Virus record (IMG/VR): IMGVR_UViG_3300025162_000174
Span: 1 to 24,153 of that record
Length of the DNA: 24,153 bases
Reading direction: 5' to 3' (one strand)
DNA from: a virus
Part shown: piece by piece, positions 4,298-24,153 of the stretch
Numbering within the stretch: position 1 is the first letter of the stretch
Layout: each line of letters begins with the position of its first letter
Translations under genes and position numbers: made by a program
Notes under the pieces: generated by a model
What the model was told of the DNA's origin: nothing
The model's input: only the letters and a program-made list of their open reading frames with translations
Databases searched by the model: none

Positions 4298-5074
4298 ATG
4301 CCTGCGACTACTAAGGTGCCGTTGGGCGCGTCTACGCTCAACCGTAAATGGTACCTGGATGTGAACACCGGTACTCACGCTGCTCCAACCTGGATTGGAG
4401 TGTTTGGCGTTGAGGACCTCAAGCCGGACTTCACTCCAACTGTGCAGCCGGACGATGATTACGATAGTGAGGGCTACAAGAGCTCCACGGTCACAGCCGT
4501 TGCCTGGGGTCTGACCCTCAAGTTGGCCAGGAAGGTGCAGGCGTCTAGTGCTACTACGTACGATCCCGGCCAGGAAGTCCTTCGTGCTGCTTCCCCGCAC
4601 ATGGGTGCAGCGAATCGCGTAGAAGTGCGCTGGTACGAGATGGAGCCCAGTGGGCCTCGTGTGGAAGCCTATCAGGGTTACGCAGCTGTCTCCTGGTCAG
4701 ATGATGGTGGAGCCATGGACGCGAATTCCACGGTGTCTGTCGTCCTCACAGGTCAGGGCGCTCGTACTTCGATCACGCATCCGGATGGCGCCTTCGCTGC
4801 TCCGGTGATCTACTCTATCACGCCGAGTACGGTAGCGGCCGCTGGCGGTACGCTGGTGCACGTTATCGGTACTAACTTCTTCAAGGCAGGTGTCAACGAT
4901 GTTGTCGCTACTACAGGTGTCTGCCTCGTAGCGCACAACTTCACCTCGTGGGTCGTCGAGAACAACAACAGCATTTGGGGTATCACGCCGGCAGAGACGG
5001 CGGGTGCCTCGTACATCAAGGTTACGAACTCGGCGGGAGCCAGCAACATTGACATCGTCGTCACGGCTGTCTGA
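4298..5074 (+). CDS. Major tail (tube) protein with C-terminal IPT/TIG domain
   Basis: A 258-residue protein. Residues 1-160 read as a tail tube beta-barrel: RKWYLDVNTGT, WIGVFGVEDLKP, the DDDYDSEGYKS loop, and the YQGYAAVSWSDDGGAMD segment typical of siphovirus tube proteins. Residues about 168-258 form an immunoglobulin-like IPT/TIG domain (VIYSITPSTVAAAGGTLVHV, then strands to DIVVTAV). Such C-terminal Ig-like domains on tube subunits would stud the outside of the tail and may help binding to surfaces or glycans. ATG 4298 follows AAGGAGAG. It precedes the chaperone genes as in most siphoviruses. Confidence 0.88.
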   Translation: MPATTKVPLGASTLNRKWYLDVNTGTHAAPTWIGVFGVEDLKPDFTPTVQPDDDYDSEGYKSSTVTAVAWGLTLKLARKVQASSATTYDPGQEVLRAASPHMGAANRVEVRWYEMEPSGPRVEAYQGYAAVSWSDDGGAMDANSTVSVVLTGQGARTSITHPDGAFAAPVIYSITPSTVAAAGGTLVHVIGTNFFKAGVNDVVATTGVCLVAHNFTSWVVENNNSIWGITPAETAGASYIKVTNSAGASNIDIVVTAV

Positions 5075-11209: not shown

Positions 11210-11221
11210 AGGAGCTATAGA

Positions 11222-11338
11222 ATGAAAGCTGGAGAGGAAGACGAAGTGCTTATAGGTATCAAAGTGAAGATGAAGGGTCGAGGCGTCGTGATCAATCCTC
11301 CGGAGACGGAAGAGACTACAGAAGAAGGAGAAGAATAA
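11222..11338 (+). CDS. Small acidic 38-residue protein, function unknown
   Basis: ATG 11222 follows AAAGGAG at 11208-11214 with a 7-base spacer, an excellent site, and the ORF ends in TAA at 11336-11338 that shares an A with the next ATG. The product begins MKAGEEDEVLIGIKVKMKG and ends with a run of Glu/Thr (EETTEEGEE). The tight fit between two tail genes, the strong SD and the coupled stop/start argue that it is translated. Its strand-like centre and acidic tail suggest a small structural or bridging protein, but no family is recognised. Confidence 0.72.
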   Translation: MKAGEEDEVLIGIKVKMKGRGVVINPPETEETTEEGEE

Positions 11339-11781
11339 TGGCTGCTCATCATTGTCGTATCTCTCAGGTCGCTGCCGTCGCTATGTGTAACGCGTTGGTA
11401 GATCTGATCGACGCAGGTTCTCCGCCCGGCCATATCATTCTTTATACAGGTACTGAGCCTACACACGCTAACGATGCTGCAGGTACTGAGGTCGCGACGT
11501 GTACTCTGAACGCTACAGCATTTAGCGCCGCTTCTTACAACGGTACGAATCATGCTGCTGAGGCTACGTTGACGGCTACTGCTACGGACGCGGAAGCTAC
11601 AGGTAATGTTGCAGCTGTTACGTATTTTCGTATCTGTAATGCGGCAGGTACTGCGATCTTGCAAGGTACATGCTCTGCTACTTCTGGTGACGATCTCGTT
11701 CTCACCACTGCAGTTATCGCTACGAACGCTGAAGTCAACATCACTGATCTTACTGTCGCCGTACCGATCGATCAAGCGTAA
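11338..11781 (+). CDS. Conserved virion-type protein, paralogue of the gene at 19364
   Basis: A 147-residue Ala/Thr-rich, beta-rich protein. After a helix (SQVAAVAMCNALVDLIDAG) come GHIILYTGTEP, ATCTLNATAFSAAS, and VTYFRICNAAGTAILQGTCS, then TSGDDLVLTTAVI and a final strand. This 'l.iYtGt.P...da....l....f..' and 's.fRi...dGt.v..G.v.tsg.dl.l....i..g..v.it' order recurs in many phage virion genes of unknown exact role. The second copy at 19364-19795 keeps the same blocks. It starts on the A of the preceding TAA. A tail-tip or fibre-associated role is inferred from neighbours. Confidence 0.65.
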   Translation: MAAHHCRISQVAAVAMCNALVDLIDAGSPPGHIILYTGTEPTHANDAAGTEVATCTLNATAFSAASYNGTNHAAEATLTATATDAEATGNVAAVTYFRICNAAGTAILQGTCSATSGDDLVLTTAVIATNAEVNITDLTVAVPIDQA

Positions 11782-11796
11782 AACAGGAGTAGGGTC

Positions 11797-14700
11797 GTGA
11801 CCTACTTCGGCGAAACCCCGACGACGGACGGTGACTACACCGTCGTCCGCTTCCTGCAGGCGGGCGAGTTCGTCACGCCCTATGGTGTCAGCGAGGGCGA
11901 GGTCCTGATCGTCGGCGGTGGTGGTGGCGGGTCCTGTGGTGGCGGAGGCGGCGGGGGAGTGCTCACCGGCACAGAGTGGGTCAGCGGCACGATGCCCGTC
12001 ACGGTCGGTGATGGAGGGCCAGCGGGCGGTTCTTACGTCCCAGGGACAATCGGTGGCCTCAGTGAGTTCGGCTCTCTCGTTGCCCGCGGTGGTGGCTACG
12101 GAGGCAACTACGGGGCCAGCGGTGGAAACGGCGCCTCGGGCGGCGGCCAAGGCGGCACCGGAGGCGGCGGTGACCACGGACTGGCGACCGGCTCTCCCCT
12201 GCAAGGGTACGACGGAGGCTGCCCAGACTACTCGGCTCCGTACCCCGGCGGCGGCGGCGGCGGCGCCGGAGGAGCAGCAGAGCACAAGGCCGCAGCTACT
12301 TACGGTGGCGCCGGCGGCATAGGAGTCGAGAGCGACATCAGCGGAGCCACTGTCGGCTACGGCGGTGGCGGAGGCGGCGGGACGTTCCAGGGCACCGACG
12401 TTGCCAAAGTCGGTACGGCTTCGCATGGTGGCGGCGCGGGCGCTATCGCTGGCTACGCTGGAGTTCCAGGTACTGCGAATACCGGCGGTGGCGGAGGCGG
12501 CGGGGGAGATGGGTACGGTGGTGGAGCCGGCGGCTCCGGCATCGTCGTCATCCGCTACCTCACCCTTCGTATAGGGGCTGTCTCTACAGCACCAGTTGCC
12601 ATTGTGTCTGGTTCTGGTACCATTCTCACCCATAGTGCTGTCTCTACAGCACCAGTTGCCATTGTGTCTGGTTCTGGTACCATTGTCGACAGTTTCCCTG
12701 AGATCACGATTGATGGTGAGTATACAGTATGGGAGTTCGCTACTCCTGGTAACGGTAGATTTGTAGTACCTCCTGCTCCTGATGGTCATCTAACTGCTGA
12801 GGTTCTAATTGTTGCTGGTGGTGGTGGAGGCGGTACGGCCGTTTCTGGCGGTGGGGCTGGCGGTGGAGCTGGCGGTTATCTTGCATATTCTAGTGTAGAT
12901 ATTTATGCCAATACAGATATCCTTATAGGGCGGGGCGGTGCTGCTCAAGAGAATGGCTTGAATAGTTCTTTTGCAGATCTTGTTGCTATTGGCGGTGGAG
13001 CCGGCAGTCATTCTTATGATACTGGTGTAGGCCAATATGGTGGTTCTGGTGGCGGCACTGAAGGTAGTGCTTTTGGCGGCGCTGGCGGTTTAGGGGAGCC
13101 AGGACAGGGATATGACGGTGGTGGTGGTTCCGATTATTCTGCGCATTATCCCGCCCGTGGCGGCGGTGGCGGTGGTGCTGGTGGAGTGGGCCAGCATGGC
13201 AGTGGTACTCATGAAAGCGATACCACTACTCATGCTGAGGGCGGTGTAGGTGTAGCCAACGATATCACAGGTTCGTCTGTTACTTATGCCCATGGTGGTC
13301 AGGGTGCTCCGTTCTTGGCTGGTGATGGTGCTGATGGTGTAAATCCTGGAGATGGTGGTGACGGTACTTGGGGTGGTACCCCTGGCTCAGGTGCCTCTGG
13401 TATTGTAGTTATCCGCTTCTTGACTCCGACTATTTATGGTTCTCTTACTACTGCCGCTTCTCAAGTTAGCGGTGCTGTACTTGTTCATAATATATATGGG
13501 GCTTACGGTCGTCTTGATGTTGCAGCCGCTAAGTTTGATCCCGCTGGTGCCGGTGGAGGTAATTGGTCTTCTGTAGAAGGAAAGCTTATTGCTCCTTCCG
13601 CTATCGTACATGGCTGGGGCTCTGAGCCTGTTTACGTAGATTATGGCGCTATGCGCTCCGGACGTACTAATGTAGCAGGTCTCGGTGCGATCGTTCCTTA
13701 TACTGGGGAACAGCTAGGACACGGTAAGTCTACTATCGAAGCTGCGCGTATTTACGGTGTAGGCAATTGTAATCTCGATGGCGTACTTCCGCCGCCTGAC
13801 GTGCCTCCGGTGCCGATAATCACTTGGCCTCCATTGCCTCGAACTACTTTACTGGAGAAGGGCCTACATACGCTTATCGGTAAGATAGCTGTGAGTATTG
13901 GCGGCGTGAACTATACTCCGTACGCAGAGAACCTGGAGTGTGATTCTAACGTAAGCGGTGGTTACGGTACTTGTACTATGTTATTGAGGCCTCCTACCCC
14001 TGTACCGAATTTTGATGATGAAGTACTCGTAACGTGCGATACAGGCGAGATATGGCGTGGCAAGGTCGTCAATACTCCGGGTATTACGTATACAGGCGAA
14101 TTCGCACGATTCCAAGTAGTCGCGGAAGGTCCAGCGAAGGAACATGGACGCCGAGAAGACTTCTCGTGGACAGGTAGCGATTCTAATGTAGGTAGTTGGA
14201 AGCAGCTTGATTGTCAGAACTGGAACTCACCTGCAGGCAGTAAAGGCTTTCAGATAAGTGCAGATACGGCTAATGGCTTGAGATTCCAGAGCGCAGACCT
14301 GGAGATAGGTGCTCGTCCGTCTCATTACTTTACACCGTCGGAAGCAGCCGTGCATTATGACTACTACGGTAACCATCCTTCGGATATACCTGCGCTTTCG
14401 CACTTAGAAGGTCAAACTGCTTGGCAAGGCGATTGTCCGGCTCCTGAGATACTATGGTCCGCTCATTACTATCAGATAGGTGATGGCCTATCGAAAGAGA
14501 AGGCTACGGGTCTTACCGCTAAGGCTAGGTACGACTTCCGTACTCCTATCATAGACGCATTGACGATAGCGAACCTAGACGCAGGTACCCGTAAGGTACT
14601 AGAGGACTGGCCTCTTGATTGGGCTTGGGCCGACTATGAGCAGATCAACGTATGGACAGACTTCTATAAGATGCCAACGCCTGGCTCGCTTTGGGCAGGC

Positions 14701-19823: not shown

Positions 19824-22259
19824 ATGGCATATCGTTCCGTAAGCGGGAACGTCTCGGCGGCGGCGACCGTCGCCGTCACGAAGCCGACCGGCATCATCAA
19901 GGGCGACATCATCATCGCCCATTGTGCCTCCTACCGCTCAACCTCCGCCGCCCCCACGCTGGCCACCATCGCCAACACGGGCGGCTCTGGCGGCGCGTCG
20001 TGGAATACCGTCGTTTCCGTGACCACGGGCACCTACTACAAATCCGCCTACGCTTGGAAGCTCGCCACGACTGACGGCGACGGCACCGTCGTCTCCTACA
20101 CGTGGTCGGCGACCTACGCCGCGAACATGACGGCCGAGGTCATCGTCCTCAGCGGGCGCAAGGCCGTCGCTCCGACGTTCATGGCGACCGCCTATACCAC
20201 GTCGGACACCATCATCCGGGGCGTCAGCGGCCTCACCGCCCTCCTGCACGACGATCTGGTGTGGATGGGCTTCAACTACCGCTCCACCGTGCAGGCGTCC
20301 GTTATGCCCAGCGGCTTCACGAACGGCATCACGGAGACAGCGGCGGCGGCTATCGCTGGCGACATCGCCTACTTGCTTGACCTAGCCGCTGGAGCCGTTG
20401 GAGCGAAGGACGGCTCTATGGCGAACGCCGTCGCCACGAAGCACGCCTTCATGGCGCTCTGTACGCGCCAGATCCTCCCCACGGTGACAAGTCTGGACGT
20501 GACTCACGGCCCGGCCTCCGGCGGTACGTCGGTGACTATCACCGGGACCGGCTTCTACGGGGCTACCGGAGTCACCTTCGGGGGCACGGCGGCGACGAGC
20601 GTGGCCGTGGTCAACGACGCATCCATCACCTGTGTCTCGCCTGCGCACGCCTCCGCCGACAACGTACAGGTGCAAGTCACCGGCCCCGGCGGCTCGTCTG
20701 CGGACGTGGCCGGGGACAACTTCACCTTCGATACCACGTCACTCGCTGCCGCGTCTACCCTGACGGCATTTACATCGTCAAGTGCTAGCCTTTCTTGGAC
20801 GGCTGCTACGGCGACCGCGCTCACTGCCAGCTCCACCCTCACTGCCTTTACATCAAGCGCTGCCAGTGTGAGCTGGCAGGCACAGACTTCGTCGCTAGCA
20901 GCTAGTTCTACGCTTACCGCATTTACATCAGGAAGCGCAAGCCTCTCATGGGTTTCTGCGACTCCGACTACTCTAGCAGCCGCGTCTACATTGACAGCAT
21001 TTACCGCTGCTAGTGCTTCTTTGTCCTGGACAGTCGCTCCGGCCCGAGCCATTACAGCTGCTTCTACTCTTACAGCGTTTACGGCCGGTAGTGCTAGTAT
21101 CTCATGGACAGCTGCCACTGCTACTTCGCTTTCGGCAGCTTCCGCGCTAACAGCGTTCACCGCAGGGTCCGCTTCTCTTTCATGGACTGCGGCACCTGCT
21201 CGTAGCCTTACAGCAGCCTCTACGCTTACAGGTTTCACAGCAGGTTCCGCGTCGCTATCCTGGACGGCAGCGACTGCTACAGCGCTTACCGCTGCTTCTA
21301 CTCTTACAGCGTTCACCTCAGGTAGTGCGAGTCTAGTTAGTATCCCTTCTACGTCGGTAACGGCTACTTCCACTCTAACTGCTTTCGCTACGGGGACTGC
21401 TTCGCTCTCTTGGATAGCCGCTACAGCTACTACGCTAGCCGCTGCGTCTACTATTACAGCATTTGTAGCTGCAGCTGCTTCTCTATCTTGGACTCCTGCC
21501 ACTCAGACTACGCTAACGTCGGCATCTATTCTGACAGCCTTTACGTCTGCTATCGCTTCGCTATCGTGGAGTCCTGCTACTCCTACTTCGCTGTCTGCTT
21601 CCTCTACGCTCACGTCCTTCTTGTCAGGTACGGCTTCGTGTTCATGGAGTCCTGCGGCTCCTACTAGTCTGAGTGCCGCGAGTACGCTGACTGGCTTTAC
21701 GTCTTCGTCTGCTAGCCTAACTAATACTGCGCCTGGTATCCCCGTAACTGGTGATAGTACACTTACAGCTTTCGTGAGCAGTAATGCTAGTCTTACTAGT
21801 ACGCCGGCTACTCCGACAGCTTTGATAGGTGGCTCTACTCTAACGGGCTTCGTAAGTGCTTCGGCTTCGCTGAGTTACTCCGTTTTTACTACGATTACCG
21901 CTGAGAGTACTCTTACTGCTTACGTTTCGTCTAGTGCAGCTCTTTCGCGTATAGCGCCTACAGCAGTTACGGTAACTGCCGCTAGTACTCTATCTGCTAT
22001 CGTTTCATCTAGTGCTTACGTAACTGCTTCAGTCAGTGTTACTATGACTGCTGCGAGCGTACTTACTAGCCATTTGTCAGGTTACTTTGCTGACTATATC
22101 CTAGGTGTTATCGGCCTAACGTCTAGCGGTATGTCTGTAGGTTATGTCTCTACTAGTAATATACGAGGTCTCGTGTCTACGAATGATCGTGGTCTTACAG
22201 ACGTGCCTAGTGAACGAGGTCTGGTGTCCGAAGGACTCAGACGGGGGGAGGAACAATGA
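19824..22259 (+). CDS. Tail fibre or surface protein with TIG domain and 18 Ser/Thr/Ala repeats
   Basis: An 811-residue protein. Residues 1-217 form a beta-sandwich-like N-terminal domain with G/C-ending codons. Residues about 218-303 are an IPT/TIG domain (PTVTSLDVTHGPASGGTSVT, GTGFYGATGVTFGG). Residues 306-757 are about 18 units of 24-26 residues on the theme LTAASTLTAFTSGSASLSWTA. The C-terminus has short RGL repeats (RGLVSTNDRGLTD, SERGLVSEG). There is no signal peptide or membrane span. It lies after the lysis block and is followed by a small beta-rich protein with a 4-base overlap. A long thin fibre or capsid/tail decoration with a terminal domain is inferred. AGAGG 5 bases before ATG 19824 supports the start. 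Confidence 0.7.
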   Translation: MAYRSVSGNVSAAATVAVTKPTGIIKGDIIIAHCASYRSTSAAPTLATIANTGGSGGASWNTVVSVTTGTYYKSAYAWKLATTDGDGTVVSYTWSATYAANMTAEVIVLSGRKAVAPTFMATAYTTSDTIIRGVSGLTALLHDDLVWMGFNYRSTVQASVMPSGFTNGITETAAAAIAGDIAYLLDLAAGAVGAKDGSMANAVATKHAFMALCTRQILPTVTSLDVTHGPASGGTSVTITGTGFYGATGVTFGGTAATSVAVVNDASITCVSPAHASADNVQVQVTGPGGSSADVAGDNFTFDTTSLAAASTLTAFTSSSASLSWTAATATALTASSTLTAFTSSAASVSWQAQTSSLAASSTLTAFTSGSASLSWVSATPTTLAAASTLTAFTAASASLSWTVAPARAITAASTLTAFTAGSASISWTAATATSLSAASALTAFTAGSASLSWTAAPARSLTAASTLTGFTAGSASLSWTAATATALTAASTLTAFTSGSASLVSIPSTSVTATSTLTAFATGTASLSWIAATATTLAAASTITAFVAAAASLSWTPATQTTLTSASILTAFTSAIASLSWSPATPTSLSASSTLTSFLSGTASCSWSPAAPTSLSAASTLTGFTSSSASLTNTAPGIPVTGDSTLTAFVSSNASLTSTPATPTALIGGSTLTGFVSASASLSYSVFTTITAESTLTAYVSSSAALSRIAPTAVTVTAASTLSAIVSSSAYVTASVSVTMTAASVLTSHLSGYFADYILGVIGLTSSGMSVGYVSTSNIRGLVSTNDRGLTDVPSERGLVSEGLRRGEEQ
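20739..22094 (+). repeat. About 18 degenerate repeats of 24-26 codons in the fibre gene
   Basis: By eye there are 17 full units and a partial 18th, in residues 306-757. Most are 26 residues; some are 24 or 25. The core STLTAF is nearly constant and [AS]ASLSW is common; the last third drifts. The DNA is not identical between units, and codon choice moves from G/C-ending at the start of the array to T/A-ending later. Confidence 0.88.
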
Positions 22260-22564
22260 GTTACTACCCGGCGCCTGTGCACATGGGTCAGTTCGGTGCA
22301 GTAAAGGCAGGCGATATCGTCGACCTGTATCTCGATATTGCTGCCGACTTGGCTGCCGGAGAGACGATCTCGTCTGTCGATTTCGAAGTAGTCAATGTGG
22401 CAGGCGTCATCATGGTTGGAGCCGTCGGTTCGCATACTGAGACGGATTCGCGTACAGACTTTCGACTCACTGCACCTGTCGAAGGCTCGTATCAATTAGC
22501 TGCTGTGTTTACTATCTCGGATGGTCAGAAGCTAACGCGTGTCGCAGACCTATCTATCGTTTGA
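22256..22564 (+). CDS. Small beta-rich fibre-associated protein
   Basis: A 102-residue protein whose ATG overlaps the fibre stop (ATGA). It reads as a single immunoglobulin-like beta sandwich: VKAGDIVDLYLDIAADLAAGE, ISSVDFEVVN, RTDFRLTAPVEGSYQLA, and ISDGQKLTRVADLSIV. The pattern 'l..GetIssv.v.v' to 'f.l.ap..G.Yql....tsDGq.ltr...l.v' recurs in phage fibre accessory proteins. The tight link to the fibre gene suggests the two act together. Good SD (GGGGGGAGG) lies just upstream. Confidence 0.6.
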   Translation: MSYYPAPVHMGQFGAVKAGDIVDLYLDIAADLAAGETISSVDFEVVNVAGVIMVGAVGSHTETDSRTDFRLTAPVEGSYQLAAVFTISDGQKLTRVADLSIV

Positions 22565-22598
22565 GGTCTGCAGTTCTGTAGGCTACGAAAGGGGAGGC

Positions 22599-23261
22599 AT
22601 GAAATATGCTACCTCATCGTTCGTCCTTACTGTGGTTCTGTTTGGGAGTGTCTTCCTGGTGTCTTCTCGTCCTGTCGCTGCGTCTGCTTCGCCCTCGTTC
22701 TCAGCCTTCTCCAGCGAAACTACCGCAACTCCAGCCGCTCTTATCGTCGTTACCCAAGCGCTCCACGTCCGCAGTCTCGCCTTGGTCGCCGGTCGTAGAT
22801 ACCGACGCGCCGCACGTTGTTTCGGGTATAGTCCACGACTACACCTGGGTAAACGGCCACCTCGTCAAGCTTCCTTCGTCTTCTGGCAGGACGCTAAATG
22901 TGGATGGCAGTCACAGTTGGTGACTTATCGTACTAAGTTCGCTAAGCTCTGGCATAGGATGAACTATCCTGGCGGCTCCGGATGGGAGCGTTGGCGTCCA
23001 TTAGTACGCTGGGTATGGCCAGCCAGATTAGTCAATACCGTTATTCAGATTATGCATTACGAGAGCGGTGGAGCTGAACATCGCTGGAACCTCGCAGGGT
23101 CTGGCGCCTTCGGCTTCTTGCAACTACTTCCTAAGCCTGCTGGAGTATGGACAGCTTTCCAGCAACTTACTTACGCTTATTGGCATAAGTACGTGGCTGC
23201 AGGTTGCTCCTGGTCTCCATGGGCAGGCTGTAGAGCCTTCGCCTATTGCTCGTACTGGTAG
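22599..23261 (+). CDS. Secreted lysozyme / transglycosylase-like protein, with a possible frame switch
   Basis: The long frame encodes 220 residues. Residues 1-30 form a clear signal peptide (MKYATSS, then hydrophobic LTVVLFGSVFLV, ending VAASA). Residues about 118-220 resemble an SLT-type lysozyme: HYESGG with catalytic Glu155, then WNLAGSGAFGFLQLLPKP, and SWSPWAGCRAFAYC near the end. From about residue 65 to 107 the composition is Arg-rich and unlike the rest, and the overlapping frame 22606-22923 looks more natural there. ATG 22599 sits only 1 base from GGGGAGG. A GTG at 22920, overlapping the other frame's TGA, could start the lysozyme part alone (113 residues). The domain call is firmer than the gene limits. 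Confidence 0.6.
   Translation: MKYATSSFVLTVVLFGSVFLVSSRPVAASASPSFSAFSSETTATPAALIVVTQALHVRSLALVAGRRYRRAARCFGYSPRLHLGKRPPRQASFVFWQDAKCGWQSQLVTYRTKFAKLWHRMNYPGGSGWERWRPLVRWVWPARLVNTVIQIMHYESGGAEHRWNLAGSGAFGFLQLLPKPAGVWTAFQQLTYAYWHKYVAAGCSWSPWAGCRAFAYCSYW
22606..22923 (+). CDS. Overlapping alternative-frame ORF, 105 residues
   Basis: ATG 22606 has GGGGAGG 8 bases upstream, a better distance than for ATG 22599. The first 60 codons mostly begin with a pyrimidine and give a Leu/Ser/Pro/Arg string, which is a shadow-frame sign, although a hydrophobic N-terminus is present. The last 40 codons (VVDTDAPHVVSG, HDYTWVNGHLVKLPSSSG) look like real protein. The TGA at 22921-22923 overlaps a GTG of the other frame. 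It may be real in its 3' part only, joined by a frameshift to the signal peptide upstream. Confidence 0.35.
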   Translation: MLPHRSSLLWFCLGVSSWCLLVLSLRLLRPRSQPSPAKLPQLQPLLSSLPKRSTSAVSPWSPVVDTDAPHVVSGIVHDYTWVNGHLVKLPSSSGRTLNVDGSHSW

Positions 23262-23292
23262 AAGACAGGACCCTCGACGTACATCAGTGGCT

Positions 23293-23370
23293 GCTCCCCA
23301 CTAAGTCGATAGGGTCCTAAGTGGGGAGCGGCGCTCCGGGTAATCCTCGGCCCGTGAGCAGCCGCTCCCC
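23293..23370 (+). terminator. Three-arm inverted repeat after the lysozyme gene
   Basis: Arm 1, GCTCCCCACT at 23293-23302, can pair with AGTGGGGAGC at 23320-23329 (10 pairs, 17-base loop). The same centre, read as GGGGAGCGGC at 23323-23332, can pair instead with GCCGCTCCCC at 23361-23370 (10 pairs). The two stems exclude each other. No T-run follows. It marks the end of the late operon and could be a terminator or an attenuator. Confidence 0.6.
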
Positions 23371-23394
23371 GCACTCTCCTAAGTCTACTCCTAC

Positions 23395-23929: not shown

Positions 23930-24153
23930 GCTTTACGATCGACGCTAAGATGTCATCCAGCCAGTTGACTACGCTGCATACGTGCAGGCTCAAGTGGTGG
24001 TTCGGTTATGGAAAGCGCTATAAGCCAATGGCCCGTTCTGAACATCTCGACTTGGGTACAGGTATACATGAAGGTTTGGCTGCGATGTACAAGACGCAGG
24101 CAGATCCTATTCACGTCTTCAACGTTTGGATGGATAAGCAGATATCGGCCGTG
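23926..24153 (+). CDS. RecB/Cas4-like PD-(D/E)XK exonuclease, N-terminal part (cut by window end)
   Basis: 76 codons are present, open to the window end. GTG 23926 follows CGAGGAGG at 23913-23920 and overlaps the upstream TGA. MSSSQLTTLHTCRLKWWFGY and then HLDLGTGIHEGLAAMYK form the opening of RecB/Cas4-family nucleases ('S.s.l..l..C..kw.f.y....rP......l..GtgiHegLa..y'). The catalytic D-ExK would lie beyond the window. These enzymes act in phage recombination or replication. With the preceding nuclease it begins a DNA-metabolism block. Confidence 0.68.
   Translation, partial: MSFTIDAKMSSSQLTTLHTCRLKWWFGYGKRYKPMARSEHLDLGTGIHEGLAAMYKTQADPIHVFNVWMDKQISAV

Follow-up and report, generated by a model that had tools for sequence, protein, structure and literature searches.

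An inverted codon signal in a phage lysozyme-like gene: very probably a single gene whose linker is conserved but of unusual composition

Gene layout of the locus

The window analyzed here (i.e., the whole stretch of 24,153 nucleotides, positions 1 to 24,153 of IMG/VR record IMGVR_UViG_3300025162_000174) is a fragment of a tailed phage with genes for a scaffold, a major head protein, and tape-measure-like, fibre-assembly-like and adaptor proteins; a nucleotide search of phage records returned nothing matching. The adaptor gene (22256-22564; Pfam Gp77) is followed by a ribosome-binding site and then by a lysozyme-like open reading frame (ORF) on the plus strand, which runs from ATG 22599 to TAG 23259-23261 (220 aa, read from the sequence; referred to here as the long frame). 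The +1 frame is also open within this gene, from ATG 22606 to TGA 22921-22923 (105 aa), and its TGA overlaps GTG 22920 of the long frame. Both sets of coordinates and the TGA/GTG overlap had been described in an earlier note on this DNA and were found to be correct when re-read from the sequence. The features of the locus are as follows:

22587-22598, plus strand: purine-rich ribosome-binding site GAAAGGGGAGGC, directly 5' of ATG 22599 (read from the sequence)
22599-23261, plus strand: one 220-aa gene for a probably exported SLT-type lysozyme-like protein (unbroken in-frame homology to the relatives L003 and L011)
22599-22700, plus strand: hydrophobic N-terminal signal/anchor segment MKYATSSFVLTVVLFGSVFLVSSRPVAASASPS (sequence; matching N-termini in L003 and L011; N-terminal helix in both structural models)
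22731-22964, plus strand: Arg-rich conserved linker, residues 45-122, predicted to form a two-helix hairpin (two- and three-sequence models; conservation)
22791-22919, plus strand: residues 65-107, the part of the linker in which the codon signal is inverted (attributed to its abundance of Arg and Pro)
22968-23240, plus strand: SLT-like putative catalytic domain, PGGSGWERWRPLV ... YESGG ... GSGAFGFLQ ... AGCRAF (invariant residues; a related domain occurs in the phage Soos tape-measure protein)
22606-22923, plus strand: 105-codon ORF in the +1 frame that most likely does not represent a gene (open length P = 0.003-0.006; no conservation; absent from L003)

Several other observations were made in the window. 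The fibre-tail adaptor gene at 22256-22564 is 61% identical to positions 4680-4985 of another contig, L010, in which the gene after the adaptor encodes 446 aa, appears portal-like by eye and is not the lysozyme; gene order around the adaptor differs between the two viruses. Directly 3' of the lysozyme-like gene, positions 23262-23386 are predicted to form a very stable multi-stem RNA (minimum free energy of -72.3 kcal/mol over 159 nt, z = -6.45, 0 of 200 shuffles as stable), for which neither an Rfam match nor a simple terminator was found. Elsewhere, a minus-strand ORF of 524 aa (11215-12789; no PHROG match) lies partly opposite a 1388-aa plus-strand ORF, and its 331 codons inside the 1388-aa gene exceed expectation (P = 0.022, overlap test).

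Protein architecture and catalytic domain

From its N-terminus, the predicted protein would begin with an export segment, continue through a stretch rich in Ser, Thr and Ala and an Arg/Pro-rich linker in the form of a helical hairpin, and end with the catalytic domain. The hydrophobic N-terminus is common to all three relatives, in which residues E155, S156, G158, G169, G172 and Q175 are also invariant, so that an E-S-x-G motif is followed by G-x-x-Q throughout. Searches of Pfam, NCBIfam and solved structures with the window protein gave nothing significant; one relative matched PF01464 weakly (E = 0.15), one family member matched a PHROG transglycosylase at 0.0048 and two matched a tape-measure PHROG (best 4.2e-4). 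The catalytic part did match a stretch of a tape-measure protein, that of Gordonia phage Soos (OR475291); this stretch itself scores above the Pfam SLT cut-off, and a profile of the three sequences aligns to it across the catalytic motifs. As in SLT/transglycosylase (lysozyme-fold) domains (PF01464) such as that of Soos, the window protein presents PGGxGxERWRP, ESGG (with the presumed catalytic Glu) and G-x-L-Q in the same order; unlike the Soos-type domain, it stands alone, carries an export segment and a linker, and falls below the Pfam threshold.

AlphaFold2 modelling with two sequences yielded confident linker helices (block means of pLDDT 70-93 in residues 41-120), with the hairpin helices at about 45-73 and 93-122; the three-sequence model was less confident. 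The catalytic part of the models had pLDDT under 50 and no confident fold, and fold searches with the low-confidence model and against the PDB were empty, as were searches for the hairpin linker in the libraries used. Overall, the most likely product of the gene is an SLT-type lysozyme that is exported and carries a helical-hairpin linker.

Codon signal along the gene

The earlier note had proposed that coding signal passes from one frame to another within this gene. We scored both frames with codon log-odds trained on the window's 20 other genes, using leave-one-out scoring for the controls. Mean log-odds for the long and +1 frames, respectively, were 0.21 and -0.25 over 22599-22790, -0.14 and +0.20 over 22791-22919, and 0.08 and -0.10 over 22920-23258, where the catalytic end scores as coding in its own frame, if weakly. 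The +1 signal peaks at about 22767-22874 and is already declining before 22919. Among 1176 windows of 43 codons from the 20 other genes, none showed a frame difference as negative as that of the linker (leave-one-out); the local codon skew in 22791-22919 exceeds window-to-window noise, and the proposed change in codon signal is thus real.

Arg and Pro are abundant in the linker (GRRYRRAARCFGYSPRLHLGKRPPRQ...), and the linkers of L003 and L011 are likewise Arg-rich. When the long-frame linker residues were recoded with the codon usage of the phage (back-translation), the long frame scored -0.11 ± 0.07 and the +1 frame 0.04 ± 0.10, as compared to observed values of -0.14 and +0.20. The observed frame difference had P = 0.07 against this expectation and P = 0.29 against permutation of synonymous codons within the gene; the +1 codon score alone was borderline (P = 0.05, usage model). 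As back-translation also inverts the codon signal, the inversion is mainly an amino acid effect, i.e., it comes mainly from the Arg/Pro-rich composition of the linker under the codon usage of the phage. Arginine codons of the CGN type, when shifted by one base, read as GNN codons, which resemble ordinary purine-first codons and contain no stops.

Conservation of the long frame in other viruses

In two distant viruses, one uninterrupted ORF encodes this protein, i.e., L003 (IMGVR_UViG_3300048592_000709; 236 aa), which matches the window protein at 39% over residues 8-214 (8e-38, blastp), and L011 (IMGVR_UViG_3300037468_000470; 246 aa), which matches at 42% over residues 40-214 (tblastn). The long frame aligns to both without a shift across residues 65-107, and A61, R70, C74, R80, P88, W96, A99, W103 and R111, in or beside the linker, are invariant in all three relatives.

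The contribution of the linker to these alignments was assessed by shuffling residues 65-107 inside the full protein 2000 times, with full-length alignment to each relative. Alignments with the true linker scored 340 and 346 as compared to means of 293 and 296 for the shuffled linkers (standard deviation about 9, maximum 334); this excess of 47-50 points over the mean was reached by none of the 2000 shuffles for either relative. Alignments with the +1-frame linker swapped in scored 273 and 284, which is no improvement on shuffled +1 linkers (P = 0.69 and 0.51). On its own, the linker shows no more than weak similarity to those of the relatives (P = 0.007-0.03 in local alignment), so that the argument depends on its being colinear between ends that are conserved.

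When viral contigs and cellular genomes were searched for further relatives with patterns of peptide and degenerate DNA sequence, only the same three viruses were recovered; the pattern matches in cellular genomes were not relatives by tblastn. Contig L010, which was reached through the upstream adaptor protein, has no lysozyme at the corresponding position and is hence uninformative.

Because two other viruses conserve the entire protein in frame, we consider it very probable that a single gene, read in one frame from ATG 22599, occupies the region and encodes a lysozyme whose linker is of unusual composition but conserved. The earlier note had left three readings side by side (a single gene with an odd linker, a frameshift or indel followed by a separate lysozyme, and overlapping genes) and had named long-frame conservation through residues 65-107 as the observation that would refute a change of frame. 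This conservation is present in the two independent relatives L003 and L011, which supports the first reading and contradicts the second; the third has no conservation support but retains a small probability, since the +1 ORF is longer than expected in two of the three relatives. As judged from these sequence comparisons, the codon skew marks neither a frameshift nor a gene boundary.

An improbable second gene in the +1 frame

The best surviving alternative is that a second gene is overprinted in the +1 frame (ATG 22606 to TGA 22923) on the signal segment and linker of the lysozyme, with which it would share the ribosome-binding site. The gene for the phage spanin subunit Rz1 sits within Rz in this manner. 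Like Rz/Rz1, the window has an open +1 frame within a phage gene of probable lysis function; unlike Rz/Rz1, it has no conserved second protein. We regard overprinting as improbable, although some of the evidence is in its favor. Given the long-frame protein, the open length of the +1 ORF in the window is greater than expected (P = 0.003-0.006, synonymous permutation), and in the L011 lysozyme gene an ATG at +7 opens a +1 frame of 134 codons (L011:4215-4626, minus strand; P = 0.01), which ends near the boundary of the linker and the catalytic part. However, 2 of 105 gene-frame tests in the window gave P ≤ 0.01, which is about the number expected by chance, and L003 has no such ORF, with stops at +1 codons 4, 42 and 98 (open-length P = 0.51).

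In residues 1-64, the +1 translations of the window and L011 are closer than under a codon-permutation null (P = 0.003), but the window and L003 are equally similar there (P = 0.005) even though L003 has no +1 ORF, which indicates a composition effect. No similarity was detectable between the +1 proteins of the window and L011 (P = 0.13 for the whole, 0.31 for the second half), and the +1 protein has no family match. The +1 frame does score as coding in about 22767-22874; however, only 0.43 stops are expected in the +1 frame of the linker, so that its openness there is no evidence for a gene, and the excess openness sits in codons 1-64, where +1 codons score poorly. Long openness and good +1 codons thus fall in different parts, while a real gene would have both together. 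Overall, conservation of a second-frame protein was not found, the frame is broken in L003, and the +1 ORF most likely arose by chance, although a slight probability of overprinting is left. It is improbable that the window virus and L011 use the ATG seven bases into the lysozyme gene to make a further small protein that is membrane-associated, is overprinted on the signal segment and linker, and has been lost from L003.

Frameshift and indel

It is highly improbable that a programmed +1 shift near 22740-22790 fuses the signal-peptide part to the +1 frame and that the lysozyme is made separately from GTG 22920. The passage of the codon signal to the +1 frame near 22767 and the overlap of TGA 22921 with GTG 22920 would fit such an arrangement, but the +1 linker suits neither L003 nor L011, and both relatives carry signal segment, linker and catalytic domain in one frame. 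A programmed frameshift would be expected to give a product with homology in two frames, whereas L003 and L011 align in a single frame over their full match. Nor is there any need for a lysozyme that starts separately at GTG 22920, as homology extends upstream through the linker.

A one-base sequencing or assembly indel that splits one frame into two would explain why the codon signal changes abruptly, but it can be dismissed with near certainty, as the long frame is unbroken and retains its homology on either side of the supposed indel and inside the stretch, and because a near-identical contig, IMGVR_UViG_3300022555_000089, is identical in the lysozyme region (its sole difference from the window in 6234 bases is at 24027), although the reads of the two contigs may not be independent.

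Implications for exported phage lysozymes

Exported phage endolysins with a signal peptide or SAR segment include Lys44 of phage fOg44 and the SAR endolysins of phages P1 and 21 (PMC7143992). With its N-terminal hydrophobic segment ahead of a predicted peptidoglycan-degrading domain, the single-gene product described here resembles these enzymes, and by analogy to signal-peptide endolysins it is most likely an exported lysozyme that acts on the host wall. The N-terminal segment would export the enzyme via Sec, and the hairpin would act as its spacer or regulator in host lysis. As compared to the known exported endolysins, the hairpin linker is unmatched in the libraries searched, and cleavage, membrane release and a role in lysis are putative here.

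These data indicate that frame-wise codon statistics can deceive over an Arg/Pro-rich linker, even where the signal lies beyond all 1176 controls. The +1 ORF, if real, would represent a spanin-like gene overprinted inside a lysozyme. Overall, the gene belongs to a rare lysozyme family, found in three viral contigs in IMG/VR, with a linker hairpin that is uncatalogued but conserved.
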